DNA of 64,000 bases, taken from NCBI GenBank assembly GCA_016283355.1, contig JAEEMS010000021.1, forward strand, positions 1 through 64,000. Reading direction: 5' to 3'. A model generated the notes under the pieces. That model did no database searches and was not told the origin of the DNA. It saw nothing but the letters and a program-made list of their open reading frames with translations. Positions within the stretch are counted from its first letter, which is position 1. The number at the start of each line of letters is the position of its first letter. Both the position numbers and the translations under genes were made by a program. Below, one piece after another: positions 21,737 to 26,609 of this stretch. Origin of the DNA: Elusimicrobiaceae bacterium. Lineage in GTDB: Bacteria; Elusimicrobiota; Elusimicrobia; Elusimicrobiales; Elusimicrobiaceae.

Positions 21737-22846
21737 TTAGTTAAAGTTCAACACAATCGAAGAAGGGGTAATGGACATTACCGTAAAATAAATATTGTAT
21801 TTGCGGATAATTTTTGCTGTTAACTCTTCCGGTGTGGAAATATTAGCGGACACATCAAATTGCGCGGCAGAGTTAGCGTAGCGCACGAGGTTAAAATCTT
21901 CGATTTCCCGTAAATTACGCAGAACCTCTTGCAATTGTTTGAGCCGTTCAATGGTGTTGACATTTTTTATCGTAACGGAAAAAATCTTCGCAGAATTAAT
22001 GGTGTCGTTAATAGGTTCTACAAGTTGTTTGGCGGCACTTTCACAAGCGGCGGAAATAGATTTTTGAGCGGCAATTTCACTCAACGGATCGAGTCCGCTT
22101 TGTTGGGCGGCCCCTTCCGCTACAATTGCATAATTGTTAGTGGAATATGTACGTACATTTGCACGTGCACGATACGAGGTGAAAGGAGAGGGTATCCCAC
22201 CCGGGAGTGCCGTCAATGGATTGGCATCCACGTCTGCCATGATGATAAAACGGGCCCCTTCGGCGCGGGCTTTATCAATGGTGGAGTTGGGATTTTCCAA
22301 ATTGTTTTTACTTAAATTATCCCCATTTACCAAAGCATACGGTTGGTTTTTCAATACGCGGTAAATAGCTTGCTTGCAATCTTGCGAAAGGGATAGATTT
22401 TCTCCTACTTGTTCACGAGAAGCCACCACGATAGTTGTTTTTTTGGCAAAAGCATCTTCATCGGTTTGTTTGATAATTTCGCCAATATCTTTCACGAGTA
22501 CCATGGCTTTAATTTTGGTATAGAAATCATCCCCTTTGCGGTAACTTTTCATTACATGTGATTTGCGGATGAAACCGGCTGTTTTGGAGGTAATTTTATC
22601 TTCTACCAATTGCGCCTGATCCACCGTAGTTGCGGAAGAAATAAATACACCGGCCACTTTTTCTACTGCATTTTTTTGAGCGGCCAAAATGCCGTCTTTG
22701 CGCATTTGGCGTATGTTATTTTCGTCGTAAGGAACCAAAGATTCGGCTTCCACATATTCCCCTTCCCCTTTGGGGCCGATACGTAAACTGCTACACGCAC
22801 TAAGGAGAATACTGGCTGTCAAAAAAGTAAGCAAAAGTTTTTTCAT
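21737..22846 (-). CDS. Lipoprotein with FlgT-like N-terminal features, unknown function
   Basis: 369-aa lipoprotein; the signal ends ILLSAC (Cys18). The region after it, with DGILAAQKNAVEKVAGVFISSATTV and a following GFIRKSHVMKSY stretch (about 50-110), resembles the N-terminal domain of flagellar assembly protein T and related envelope proteins. No flagellar genes are in the window, so a flagellar role is not supported. The C-terminal two thirds is mixed alpha/beta with a VSITI-like strand region around 295-330. It overlaps the preceding lipoprotein gene by 4 nt and ends 1 nt before comM begins. It is the third member of a unit with the DnaA-like AAA+ protein. Confidence 0.65.
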   Translation of the reverse strand: MKKLLLTFLTASILLSACSSLRIGPKGEGEYVEAESLVPYDENNIRQMRKDGILAAQKNAVEKVAGVFISSATTVDQAQLVEDKITSKTAGFIRKSHVMKSYRKGDDFYTKIKAMVLVKDIGEIIKQTDEDAFAKKTTIVVASREQVGENLSLSQDCKQAIYRVLKNQPYALVNGDNLSKNNLENPNSTIDKARAEGARFIIMADVDANPLTALPGGIPSPFTSYRARANVRTYSTNNYAIVAEGAAQQSGLDPLSEIAAQKSISAACESAAKQLVEPINDTINSAKIFSVTIKNVNTIERLKQLQEVLRNLREIEDFNLVRYANSAAQFDVSANISTPEELTAKIIRKYNIYFTVMSITPSSIVLNFN

Positions 22847-23292
22847 TTGTGGGCCTCCGGGTCAATTCCTGCTTGTTTCAGATAAGCGCGGTCCAAGCGC
22901 ATGATAACTGTGCAACCGCCGTCATTTAGGTATTCGGTAGATACCAGCTCCATTCGTTGGATGATTCCTTGCGATGTGGAATCCAACGTGCTGGCGGAAG
23001 AAACGGCATCCACTACTTGAACATGGCTTTGAACATTTGCACCAAAAAGCACCTCACTTGCGCGTTGGTAAGCGTGTGCAATGGCTGCCTCACGGCTCAT
23101 AATACGGCGTTGGGAATCCGAGGAGTGGGCTGGATTTGCAGCCCCCATTCCGCGTACCCACAAATAATCTCCGGTTAGCAATGTATCATTGAAAGCGGGA
23201 GCAATTTTCCCGTCTTTTACGGCACTCTTTAAAGAATGGGTGCATGCGCCCAGCAGTAATACAACACTACACAATGCAAGAATTTTTTTCAT
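22843..23292 (-). CDS. Small LPP20-like lipoprotein, unknown function
   Basis: 149-aa lipoprotein with signal MKKILALCSVVLLLGAC (Cys17). The body contains SREAAIAHAYQRASEVLFG (about 68-86), the helix of the type seen in LPP20/FlgP-like lipoproteins, followed by a beta-rich end (VEYLNDGGCTVIMRLDRAYL-like region, about 120-142). The family match is by pattern only. The ATG is 2 nt from the stop of the DnaA-like gene, and its own stop overlaps the next lipoprotein by 4 nt, so the three are almost certainly co-translated from one mRNA. Confidence 0.65.
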   Translation of the reverse strand: MKKILALCSVVLLLGACTHSLKSAVKDGKIAPAFNDTLLTGDYLWVRGMGAANPAHSSDSQRRIMSREAAIAHAYQRASEVLFGANVQSHVQVVDAVSSASTLDSTSQGIIQRMELVSTEYLNDGGCTVIMRLDRAYLKQAGIDPEAHK

Positions 23293-23294
23293 AG

Positions 23295-25961
23295 TTATCT
23301 CATCAGTTCTGCCAACACTTTTACATACATACTGGGCTGACGGACACTTTCAAAATTGATAATGCCGCAGCGGATTAACATCACTTCCAACATGTGCGTT
23401 AGAATGTCGTAAAAATTCTCCCGTACAGAGGGATCGCAATCCCCGGGACGAGGTCCTAAGATGATAGCTCCTTTTAATTTCTTGTTATCGCACAAGTTGG
23501 CAATCTTGAAAGCGGAAGAAATGATATTTTCCGTTGCATAAGAAGAACGCACTACAATTTCCGGTCCGCCTTCAATACCTAATTCCCGTGCTCGCTGTTG
23601 AAGTGAAAATACCATCCAGTTCATTTTATCGGCGCAATTAGCCGGGTAGAAGAACCCAATTCTGCCCCACTCGCCGTTTCCCATCGTAACGATAGAAGTG
23701 ATTTTATCCGGTGAGGTGGTGATGATGCGGCTGGTTTGGTCTTCTCCCTTTGAGGCCAGCAATTTTTCCAAAAGAGCAGCGGCGGAACGTTGCTGTGCAT
23801 CCACGTTGTGGGGGAGTAAACTCTCCAGCACTTTCAGACGGCGGATACTGCGTTGAACCGTCCCCAGCGTCATATGGTCTGCCCGGAAGAAACTGGTAAT
23901 TTGAGAATCCGTTAAATCAATGTGATTATCCATCAACATCTTTTTGGTAATTTTGAACTGCACGTTGCCCGTAGGGGCTTTCAGTTCGCTGATATACCCG
24001 GAATCCAAACGGAACTTGATTAATTCTTCCAATTTTTCCAAACTTTCGGGCGGATATTTGGAGGTAATGACAATTTGTTTTTGTTCTTTCAAAAACGTGT
24101 TGAGCAATTTGGAAATATAAGCCCTGTTTTGCTCGTTGATAGCCAGCAAATGTATGTCATCGATGAGTAGTACTTTAACTGTGGAAATGAATTGATCAAA
24201 TTTATCAATGTTTCCTTCCATGATGTAGCGCTGAATACCGCGGGATAAACGTACCCCGTTGGTCATAAACACATTGGCTTGACCGAAATTTTGACTAAAT
24301 GCGTAAGCCATCGCATTTAAGAAATGGCTTTTACCGGTACCGGTTGCTCCGTGCAATACAAGAGGATTATACATCTTCCCGGGAGATGCAATGACGGACA
24401 TGGCGGTAGCATGGGCAAAACGGTTGACGGACATAATCATGTTGCTCAACGTATAGGTGGGTACCCAGGGGATCTCTAAGGGCCAATTGTGTTTTTTAAG
24501 TTCAGACAAGGACACTTGTATGGAATGATCAATCGTGCGGGTGCGTTCCAACGGAGTTTTAGTCGGTTGGGGTGTTTCCTGTTGTTGAGTTTCCGCAATC
24601 CGTGGCCGCGGGGGTATCGCATTAAACGGTTTGGGTGCCTGCGGTTTTCCGGGCACCGGCGGCATCGGCGCGGAAGGCCCTTTCGGCTTTAGTTTAAAAA
24701 ATGTCTGTTTCTGTTTATCATCCATAGATTTTGTCCTCAATATGGTTTTGTTACCCTTGTTTGCGGAATCCACTTTAGGGGTGGATTCTCGTTTAACCCT
24801 TTGCAAATTGGCGGATCGCGGTGTAGCTACCTTGTTTTTGTTTTGTTCGGGAGTTGTGGACGCTACGGTACGAGCACTCCGTTTATTAACGGGCGCAGCT
24901 TTTTGTTGGTTTTCAGCTGGCTCCGGCGTATCCAAATCAATGGTAAAAGGAGCTTGCCGTAACGTAATTTCCGGTAATGCATCATTGATAGGTTGGGCCG
25001 CACGTACAGTGTGTAAAGAAGGATCCTGTCGGAAAGTGGACTCTCCCGATTCTTTGGCAGCAGAAAGCTGTTCCCTTGTAAATGGTTTGGATAAGGCCGA
25101 TGTTTTTAGGTCAATGACATTGGTTTGTTCTTTGATGTCTTGGGCAAAAACATCCCCATTCTCTTCCTGTTGCGGGGCAGGTGTTGTGGCCCGGTTGAGC
25201 TTATCTTCACGTTGAGATTGGGCATGCTGCATTTTTTCTTTGTTTTCTACATCCACAAACATATCGTATTTGGTTTCGGCCGCAAAAATATCTTCTAACG
25301 GCATCCGGTCCAATACTGTTCCTTCCATATCTTTAATGAGCATATCTTTCTCGTCCAACGGGAAATCCAGGGCAGGATTTTCGGTTGGTTCGGCGGACTC
25401 CGATTGTCCGGCAGGCATTAAATCGCTCTTTGCCCAAGCCGCCAGTTCATCTCCCACTTGAGTGGCGGGAATAAAAGAAGTAAAAGTCGGTTCTCCTTCC
25501 TCGTGGGCAGGCAAAATTAATTCGGGCGGTTGGGGCTTGTAAGTAGTAGTTAAATCAGCCGGAACTTCGCTGGAGGCCACATGCTGCGTTTTAAGAGCCA
25601 ACGAATCTCCTTCATCCAAATCGATGGCAAAAGGTTCATTTTCCTCTTGGGAAGGAGTGTTATTGTTGAAAAGGGGATCTCCCAACACGCCGCCAGGCAC
25701 AAATTGATTGATTTTGTTGGCTTGTTCCACCCCTTCACGTGTAGCGGTGCGGATTTTGTCTTGAGTGGTTTCATCCAAATCTTGGGGTAATTCAAAGGCA
25801 TAAACAAAAGGAGGATCGGCGGGGATTGATTTTTTAACAAACCCTGCCAATTTTTTTGCAATCAGTCGTGCCTCTTGTTCCGTCCCGTCAATCATTAGAG
25901 AAAAAGAGTGACGCCCCGTCTCGGGGTCTACGCGAGAAACTAAATCCCAGTTATTAATCAT
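23295..25961 (-). CDS. Large DnaA-like AAA+ ATPase with novel N- and C-terminal regions
   Basis: 888-aa protein of unknown role. Four regions are visible. Residues about 1-90 form a small ordered domain. About 90-480 is low-complexity, rich in E/D, then P/T/K/Q, and probably disordered. About 500-715 is a DnaA-type ATPase: VNRFAHATAMSVIASPGK matches DnaA's NRFAHA...PGK signature, Walker A is GATGTGKSH near 536, Walker B is VLLIDDIHLL near 598, and FRLDSGYISEL corresponds to DnaA's sensor/arginine-finger segment. About 752-888 is an alpha/beta domain I do not recognise. DnaA's DNA-binding helix-turn-helix (DHTTV signature) is absent, so this is not the replication initiator itself. It lies 6 nt after deoC and 2 nt before a lipoprotein gene. 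Confidence 0.85.
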   Translation of the reverse strand: MINNWDLVSRVDPETGRHSFSLMIDGTEQEARLIAKKLAGFVKKSIPADPPFVYAFELPQDLDETTQDKIRTATREGVEQANKINQFVPGGVLGDPLFNNNTPSQEENEPFAIDLDEGDSLALKTQHVASSEVPADLTTTYKPQPPELILPAHEEGEPTFTSFIPATQVGDELAAWAKSDLMPAGQSESAEPTENPALDFPLDEKDMLIKDMEGTVLDRMPLEDIFAAETKYDMFVDVENKEKMQHAQSQREDKLNRATTPAPQQEENGDVFAQDIKEQTNVIDLKTSALSKPFTREQLSAAKESGESTFRQDPSLHTVRAAQPINDALPEITLRQAPFTIDLDTPEPAENQQKAAPVNKRSARTVASTTPEQNKNKVATPRSANLQRVKRESTPKVDSANKGNKTILRTKSMDDKQKQTFFKLKPKGPSAPMPPVPGKPQAPKPFNAIPPRPRIAETQQQETPQPTKTPLERTRTIDHSIQVSLSELKKHNWPLEIPWVPTYTLSNMIMSVNRFAHATAMSVIASPGKMYNPLVLHGATGTGKSHFLNAMAYAFSQNFGQANVFMTNGVRLSRGIQRYIMEGNIDKFDQFISTVKVLLIDDIHLLAINEQNRAYISKLLNTFLKEQKQIVITSKYPPESLEKLEELIKFRLDSGYISELKAPTGNVQFKITKKMLMDNHIDLTDSQITSFFRADHMTLGTVQRSIRRLKVLESLLPHNVDAQQRSAAALLEKLLASKGEDQTSRIITTSPDKITSIVTMGNGEWGRIGFFYPANCADKMNWMVFSLQQRARELGIEGGPEIVVRSSYATENIISSAFKIANLCDNKKLKGAIILGPRPGDCDPSVRENFYDILTHMLEVMLIRCGIINFESVRQPSMYVKVLAELMR

Positions 25962-25967
25962 TACAAA

Positions 25968-26609
25968 TTACCCTTCTACAATTTTTACCCCGCTGCTAGC
26001 CCCCACACGCGTTGCTCCCGCAGCTACCATTTTATCGAAATCTTCTCGAGATCGTACTCCCCCGGAAGCTTTTACTTCCATGTGGACCGGAATAGATTTG
26101 CGCATCAGTTCTACATCCTCTGTTGTTGCTCCACCGCCGATAAACCCTGTTGAAGTTTTCACGAAATCGGCATCCGCTTTGGCGCAGAGCTCACACGCTT
26201 TGACTTTTTCTTCATTCGTTAACTGAGAAGTTTCGATAATTACTTTTAGTACGTGTCCCAAACAAGCTTGGCGTACCGCGCGGATATCTTCCAATACGGT
26301 ATCGTAGTCCTTGGCTTTTAAGGCACCGTTGTTAATTACCATATCAATTTCATCCGCACCGTCTTTGATGGCTTGTGTTGTTTCAAATGCTTTTACCGTA
26401 GTGGTGTTTGCGCCGAGCGGAAACCCAATAACCGTACAAACTTTTACCTCCGATCCTTTGAGTTGTTCTTTGGCAAAAGACACCCAAAACGGATTTACGC
26501 ACACGCTGCAAAAATGGTATTGCCGTGCTTCTTCACACAAGCGGGCTATATCGTTTTTAGTGGCGATAGGTTTTAAAAGTGTATGGTCAATGAGTTTCGC
26601 TCTTTGCAT
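25968..26609 (-). CDS. deoC: Deoxyribose-phosphate aldolase
   Basis: Cleaves 2-deoxyribose-5-phosphate to glyceraldehyde-3-phosphate and acetaldehyde in deoxynucleoside breakdown. The 213-aa TIM barrel has the class I Schiff-base chemistry of the short DeoC group: [15 protein letters not shown] at the start, [20 protein letters not shown] (about 57-76), [12 protein letters not shown] (about 87-98), and the catalytic Lys in [10 protein letters not shown] (about 145-154) with a second Lys in [11 protein letters not shown]. Its product feeds triose-phosphate isomerase, encoded 8 nt upstream. Confidence 0.97.

Follow-up and report, generated by a model that had tools for sequence, protein, structure and literature searches.

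A DnaA-like ATPase of Elusimicrobiota with two new end domains, linked in deep lineages to genes for a PilT-family ATPase and a GAF kinase

Results

A DnaA-type ATPase that lacks domains I and IV

The window, by which we mean the whole stretch of DNA analysed, comprises 64,000 nucleotides (positions 1 to 64,000, forward strand, of contig JAEEMS010000021.1) from the genome of an Elusimicrobiaceae bacterium (GCA_016283355.1; 1.40 Mb, 96% complete). An intact open reading frame on its minus strand (25961..23295) encodes a protein of 888 amino acids (aa), hereafter DnaA-like, whose ATG start agrees in an alignment with the start in all relatives. The protein is a DnaA-type ATPase that lacks DnaA domains I and IV and has two new domains, one at the N-terminus (NTD) and one at the C-terminus (CTD), arranged as follows.

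23295..25961, minus strand: complete gene, stop codon included, for the 888-aa DnaA-like AAA+ paralogue; the genome has one further PF00308 gene
25704..25961, minus strand: NTD, residues 1-86, begins MIxxWD... (32-sequence alignment and AlphaFold2)
24522..25703, minus strand: variable linker, residues 87-480 (composition and TOP-IDP score)
23757..24464, minus strand: DnaA domain III-type AAA+ core, about residues 500-735 (PF00308 and DnaA PDB sequence matches)
24327..24350, minus strand: Walker A, GATGTGKS, residues 538-545 (sequence comparison)
24156..24170, minus strand: Walker B, LLIDD, residues 598-602 (sequence comparison)
24009..24011, minus strand: Arg-finger position R651, equivalent to R285 of Escherichia coli DnaA; H, K or R elsewhere in the family and Q or E in the sister family
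23298..23684, minus strand: CTD, residues 760-888, in place of DnaA domain IV (AlphaFold2, Foldseek and profile comparison)

The core is unmistakably that of a DnaA-family AAA+ protein. Bac_DnaA (PF00308) matched residues 502-657 far over its cut-off (E = 2.3e-30), and the nearest PDB sequences were those of DnaA (8bv3/8btg, E about 5e-26), so that the DnaA-type signature with Walker A and B motifs reported by the initial annotation is borne out. Against the equivalog models of DnaA (TIGR00362) and Hda (TIGR03420), the protein scored 138.8 and 44.5 bits, under the respective cut-offs of 343.9 and 194.8. Neither domain I (DnaA_N) nor domain IV (Bac_DnaA_C) gave a match in the protein, even at E<=1, and no signal peptide or membrane segment was evident in its sequence.

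The initial annotation had named two outcomes that would make this protein the replication initiator and not a new paralogue, namely a domain IV in the C-terminus and the absence of any other dnaA in the genome. Both are excluded, since domain IV gave no match and a separate, ordinary dnaA exists. A domain IV concealed in the C-terminus is also at odds with the predicted fold of the CTD, which is Rossmann-like and differs from the helical domain IV. The genome contains exactly two Bac_DnaA genes, and the second, on another contig, is a 451-aa dnaA with domains I, III, and IV (Bac_DnaA_C E = 1.1e-25; TIGR00362 450.8 bits; DnaA_N E = 8.6e-5, slightly under the gathering score), which excludes DnaA-like as the sole initiator. 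The bona fide DnaA of the window's order was itself unusually divergent, as in L104 (genome G049) and in L001, L105, and L106 (genus of the window): examples had SAPGLGKTH or APSGMGKTH at Walker A and RLLS, not RFEW, at box VII, and L104 formed a long branch.

A role as stand-in helicase loader is unlikely because dciA adjoins dnaA, lying about 2 kb downstream of it in the window's genome and beside it in 30 of 31 relatives. The DnaC/DnaI/IstB loaders share a related P-loop core with DnaA-like and gave weak profile matches, but Bac_DnaA scored far higher, and DciA, an alternative helicase operator, already has its gene beside dnaA. This position of dciA agrees with the record of DciA in Elusimicrobia in a paper on helicase operators (PMC5109545).

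Both ends of the protein are conserved domains

The alignment of the order consisted of three conserved blocks (NTD, AAA+ core, and CTD) and a variable linker. This architecture is not a product of chance, since the layout was identical in all aligned members of the order. The initial annotation had described about 480 mostly disordered N-terminal residues. That description held for the linker (residues about 90 to 480), which is rich in Pro, Ala, Glu, Thr, and Gln and, judged by composition and TOP-IDP score, is probably disordered, but not for residues 1 to about 86, which were conserved among 32 aligned sequences. AlphaFold2 predicted a beta-beta-alpha-beta-beta-alpha arrangement for this NTD with moderate confidence (pLDDT 79, pTM 0.63), and a structure search with it returned no convincing relative (best E = 0.007).

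The C-terminal region, described at first as about 135 residues of unknown fold in place of the helix-turn-helix, does replace domain IV, but its fold could be predicted confidently: its roughly 130 residues were modelled as four beta-alpha units (AlphaFold2 pLDDT 90, pTM 0.83). The top Foldseek matches were Argonaute MID domains (E = 5.7e-5, TM 0.56-0.60, 11-18% identity), followed at nearly equal scores by lumazine synthases and designed proteins. Because these score so close behind, we describe the predicted topology as Rossmann-like and MID-like and claim nothing beyond that. Among Pfam families and PDB sequences, neither the NTD nor the CTD had a relative, and the CTD had no MID-family match by sequence. 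Assignment of the CTD to a named family was rejected; matches to GKRP_SIS_N (E = 0.0025), TRF, LPG_synthase_C, and GIT1_C lay below cut-off, occurred in 1-3 members each and are attributed to chance.

Across the phylum, DnaA-like proteins ranged from about 450 to 1600 aa, the linker accounting for most of this range. A short linker motif conserved within the genus had seemed possible by eye; it proved hardly invariant in a six-way alignment and is not claimed. In two short proteins of about 450 aa (L093, genome G069, contig C28; L055, genome G064, contig C1), neither the NTD nor the linker seems to be present, and dedicated PilT (defined below) is absent; these are possibly truncated or reduced forms.

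A paralogue spread through the phylum and separated from DnaA

The spread of the gene was assessed in 199 genomes drawn across Elusimicrobiota. The CTD was present in 114 of them, comprising all 69 sampled genomes of the window's order and occurring in most other families, so that the architecture is conserved in relatives, where the initial annotation had proposed to look for it. Families outside the window's class likewise have NTD, AAA+ core, and CTD, plus a second linker between core and CTD, and a comparison of profiles indicated that the CTD of the deep lineages and that of the order are one family (hhalign E = 1.7e-11). No CTD was found in the listed members of the large family f10, nor in f4, f5, and part of f7. 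The genomes of these four groups had dnaA and were missing both DnaA-like and dedicated PilT. The DnaA-like gene was likely lost several separate times.

A scan of 84,980 species for the pattern of the deep-lineage CTD, which consists of two short motifs and would miss divergent relatives, gave no matches outside Elusimicrobiota. Plasmid matches to the AAA+ core were ordinary DnaA wherever annotated, and a search of open-licence full texts found no literature on such a DnaA paralogue.

In an unrooted maximum likelihood tree of the AAA+ core that included E. coli DnaA (locus L144), one branch parted all DnaA-like rows from all DnaA rows, that of E. coli among them (support 97/70; 98% of bootstrap trees). 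We regard this support as moderate because branches are long in the window's class. The simplest reading of these sequences is a single duplication of dnaA at the root of the phylum or close to it.

Switch residues are complete in deep members and altered in the class of the window

Walker A and B are intact in members from deep lineages, as are sensor I Asp269, Arg finger 285 (SRFEW), and sensor II Arg334 (NIREL; E. coli numbering). The window's class retains Walker A and B, has an altered sensor I and has lost sensor II. The Arg-finger position in this class holds R, H, K, Q, or E; within the window's own family it is R, H, or K and varies even among members of the genus. Arg occupies this position in the window protein, but not in close relatives. 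Read from these residues, the ancestral protein could have assembled and switched as DnaA does, and the window protein probably retains ATP binding, not the DnaA-type switch mechanism.

A partner protein, a PilT-family ATPase, and a kinase at the ancestral locus

The genes of the window run along one strand in the order tpiA-deoC-[DnaA-like]-lipoprotein-lipoprotein-comM(yifB)-dprA-topA. The immediate neighbours, with reference genes from other loci, are these.

25968..26609, minus strand: deoC, directly upstream of DnaA-like with a 6-base gap (TIGR00126, 296 bits)
22843..23292, minus strand: 149-aa lipoprotein, lipobox LLGAC, 2-base gap to DnaA-like; conserved next gene in the family
21737..22846, minus strand: 369-aa lipoprotein, lipobox LLSAC; kept as a neighbour in family f8 as well as the window's order
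L048:3428-4501, plus strand: dedicated-clade PilT, reference for identity values
L047:3955-5499, plus strand: NTD+CTD partner without ATPase
L051:4210-5781, plus strand: NTD+CTD partner without ATPase
L056:5520-6959, minus strand: NTD+CTD partner without ATPase

The two lipoprotein genes overlap by 4 bases, and both have a conserved place near DnaA-like in f8 and the window's order. The shorter protein weakly resembled FlgT_N (E = 0.0022, below cut-off).

Other lineages, in families of different classes, have the order tpiA..deoC - PilT - partner - DnaA-like - GAF kinase; directly upstream of DnaA-like, where the window has deoC, they have the ancestral PilT and partner genes. The neighbouring PilT exceeded the cut-off of TIGR01420 (447 vs 319 bits), and GAF, HisKA, and HATPase domains were identified in the kinase. 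Among loci of the sister family f2, the partner was found at 13 of 13 loci with upstream sequence and the kinase at 12 of 13 with downstream sequence. Family f8 (L043), which belongs to the window's class, has the full PilT, partner, and kinase set together with both lipoproteins and joins the deep arrangement to that of the window.

No known domains were found in the partner protein. Its C-terminus is homologous to the CTD of DnaA-like (hhalign E = 3.6e-12), it has no ATPase, and the NTD also stands at the N-terminus of the partners at L047, L051, L056, L079, L081, and L082. Two such NTD+CTD partner genes lie in tandem at L079 and L082. PilT, partner, and kinase have disappeared from the locus in the window's lineage; in the window's genome, the partner was undetected, a single CTD was found in total, and an orthologue of the kinase was absent.

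We defined a dedicated PilT clade as proteins 56-77% identical to the PilT of L048, other PilT paralogues reaching at most about 50%. Dedicated PilT was present in 36 of the 199 genomes, and 35 of these had the CTD, the exception (G188) being 79% complete; among the 163 genomes without dedicated PilT, 79 had it (Fisher p = 9e-9, ignoring shared ancestry). In 30 of the 35 genomes with both, the PilT and DnaA-like genes shared a contig at a distance of 1.4-3.7 kb. Thus dedicated PilT was practically never seen without DnaA-like, whereas DnaA-like often occurs without dedicated PilT, also in the window's order. The window's genome has other PilT-family genes (41-43% identity to that of L048), and the linkage to dedicated PilT is absent from it. 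The idea that DnaA-like and type IV pili always occur together was discarded: several f10 genera have a PilT-family ATPase and no DnaA-like, and because of them only the dedicated clade is informative. Conservation of the NTD, the spread through the phylum, the partner protein, and the linkage to PilT and kinase were beyond reach of the window alone, and the initial observation, though real, was understated.

Discussion

The AAA+ core of DnaA is among the most conserved of bacterial machines, and its known work concerns DNA: initiation, Hda-type control of initiation, and transcription. Our results establish the architecture of the DnaA-like protein, its age, its apartness from dnaA, its loss of domain IV, the existence of an ATPase-less partner, and the linkage to PilT and kinase genes. 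In many lineages, its gene lies with those for a PilT-type motor and a sensor kinase, and the protein probably does a job other than initiating replication. The comparison with DnaA points both ways: domain III aligns throughout, with Walker A and B and the box VII and VIII regions, and sensor I, Arg finger, and sensor II persist in deep members, but DnaA-like has neither domain I nor the helix-turn-helix of domain IV, carries long variable linkers and the new NTD and CTD, and coexists with a normal dnaA.

The explanation we tentatively favour, at somewhat short of an even chance, is that this phylum-specific dnaA paralogue, whose two DNA-facing ends, domains I and IV, gave way to the NTD and CTD, now serves as an ATP switch or scaffold acting on protein partners in pilus control. 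The ATP-driven core would then act on proteins, not on DnaA boxes. In the ancestral module, the ATP form would assemble through Arg finger and sensor II in the manner of DnaA, the NTD and CTD would tie it to the partner, and the assembly would transmit kinase input to the PilT-type motor and so to the retraction of type IV pili, with twitching, surface sensing, or DNA uptake as output. For the window's lineage we infer, more weakly, that ATP might be bound through the intact Walker A and B and that the protein might act as a nucleotide-dependent scaffold, possibly with the downstream lipoproteins. The ancestral neighbour is a PilT-family ATPase over its cut-off, which brings the regulators of PilT/PilU-family ATPases to mind; the literature searched describes no DnaA-family protein as a PilT regulator, and we know of none, nor of a counterpart of the PilT/partner/DnaA-like/kinase module.

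Several points weigh against this explanation. For every member, the pilus link is drawn from gene content and gene order, and 79 genomes, that of the window included, have DnaA-like without dedicated PilT. What is inferred for the deep lineages may not extend to the window's genome, because the partner was undetected and the kinase orthologue absent there. Because tpiA and deoC accompany the module, inherited synteny may account for part of the linkage. The resemblance of the CTD to Argonaute MID exists at the level of fold alone.

Control of replication, the first of the roles offered by the initial annotation, is not supported as the main reading, and we judge it unlikely. Hda and the SirA/Soj-type regulators act on DnaA, and DnaA-like might likewise slow or titrate initiation through AAA+-to-AAA+ contact with DnaA. 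It has DnaA's own core fold, the complete Arg finger and sensor II of deep members make mixed oligomers conceivable, and the window gene shares its gene run with topA and dprA. However, Hda-like clamp binding was rejected, as no clamp-binding pentapeptide was found in the 7 family members scanned; the score against the Hda model is far under its cut-off (see above); the Arg-finger residue varies even inside the genus; whole families that have dnaA are without DnaA-like; dciA lies beside dnaA; and the conserved neighbours in deep lineages comprise PilT, partner, and kinase and none of dnaN, gyrB, and parAB. Hda/HdaA (TIGR03420, NF006571) also combines a DnaA-family AAA+ core with the lack of domain IV, but it is about 230-250 aa long, its Arg finger is essential, and a clamp-binding motif lies at its N-terminus, whereas DnaA-like measures 450-1600 aa and has lost the Arg finger in the window's class. 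The initial annotation's view of a paralogue with extensions foreign to Hda was correct.

A part in DNA uptake (competence) seems to us similarly improbable. Given that domain III of DnaA is able to bind single strands, the core, with a CTD that recognises nucleic-acid ends, could handle pilus-retracted DNA inside the cell with ComM and DprA as partners. The linkage to PilT fits this proposal, as do the comM(yifB) and dprA genes that follow directly downstream, both in the window and in much of its class, and the top fold match of the CTD to Argonaute MID, which binds the 5' end of the guide strand. Set against this, the comM-dprA-topA neighbours were not seen in deep lineages and are part of widespread housekeeping clusters, the CTD has no MID-family sequence match, and the partner has the CTD and no ATPase, which fits pairing of proteins at least equally well.

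The least probable of the three, and in our view a very doubtful one, is that in the window's lineage DnaA-like is a cytoplasmic ATP-binding scaffold for the envelope that works with the two downstream lipoproteins and is no longer related to pili: the spacing of the genes (2-base gap and 4-base overlap), their conservation as neighbours in the order and f8, and the disappearance of PilT, partner, and kinase from the locus all suit it, but the protein has no evident signal peptide or membrane segment and would not share a compartment with the lipoproteins, and co-transcription, which would extend to tpiA, deoC, comM, dprA, and topA in the same operon, is not proof of joint function. Of the roles offered by the initial annotation, an envelope-linked ATPase nevertheless comes nearest, as two lipoprotein genes directly follow the window gene.

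Returning to the reading of a switch or scaffold in pilus control, a fuller version, which we consider rather less likely than that reading in general form, may be put as follows. The DnaA switch would have been duplicated near the base of the phylum and have left replication entirely; an oligomer tied to its partner would time the pilus motor under a GAF kinase; and the gut-associated lineage of the window would have lost the switch and most of the module and taken on a further role. If true, the ATP switch of DnaA would be reusable as a general device for timing or assembly. The family also adds two protein domains absent from family libraries, one of them with a confident predicted fold, and it offers a natural experiment, with the full switch in deep members, its loss in the window's class, and loss of the gene in several families.
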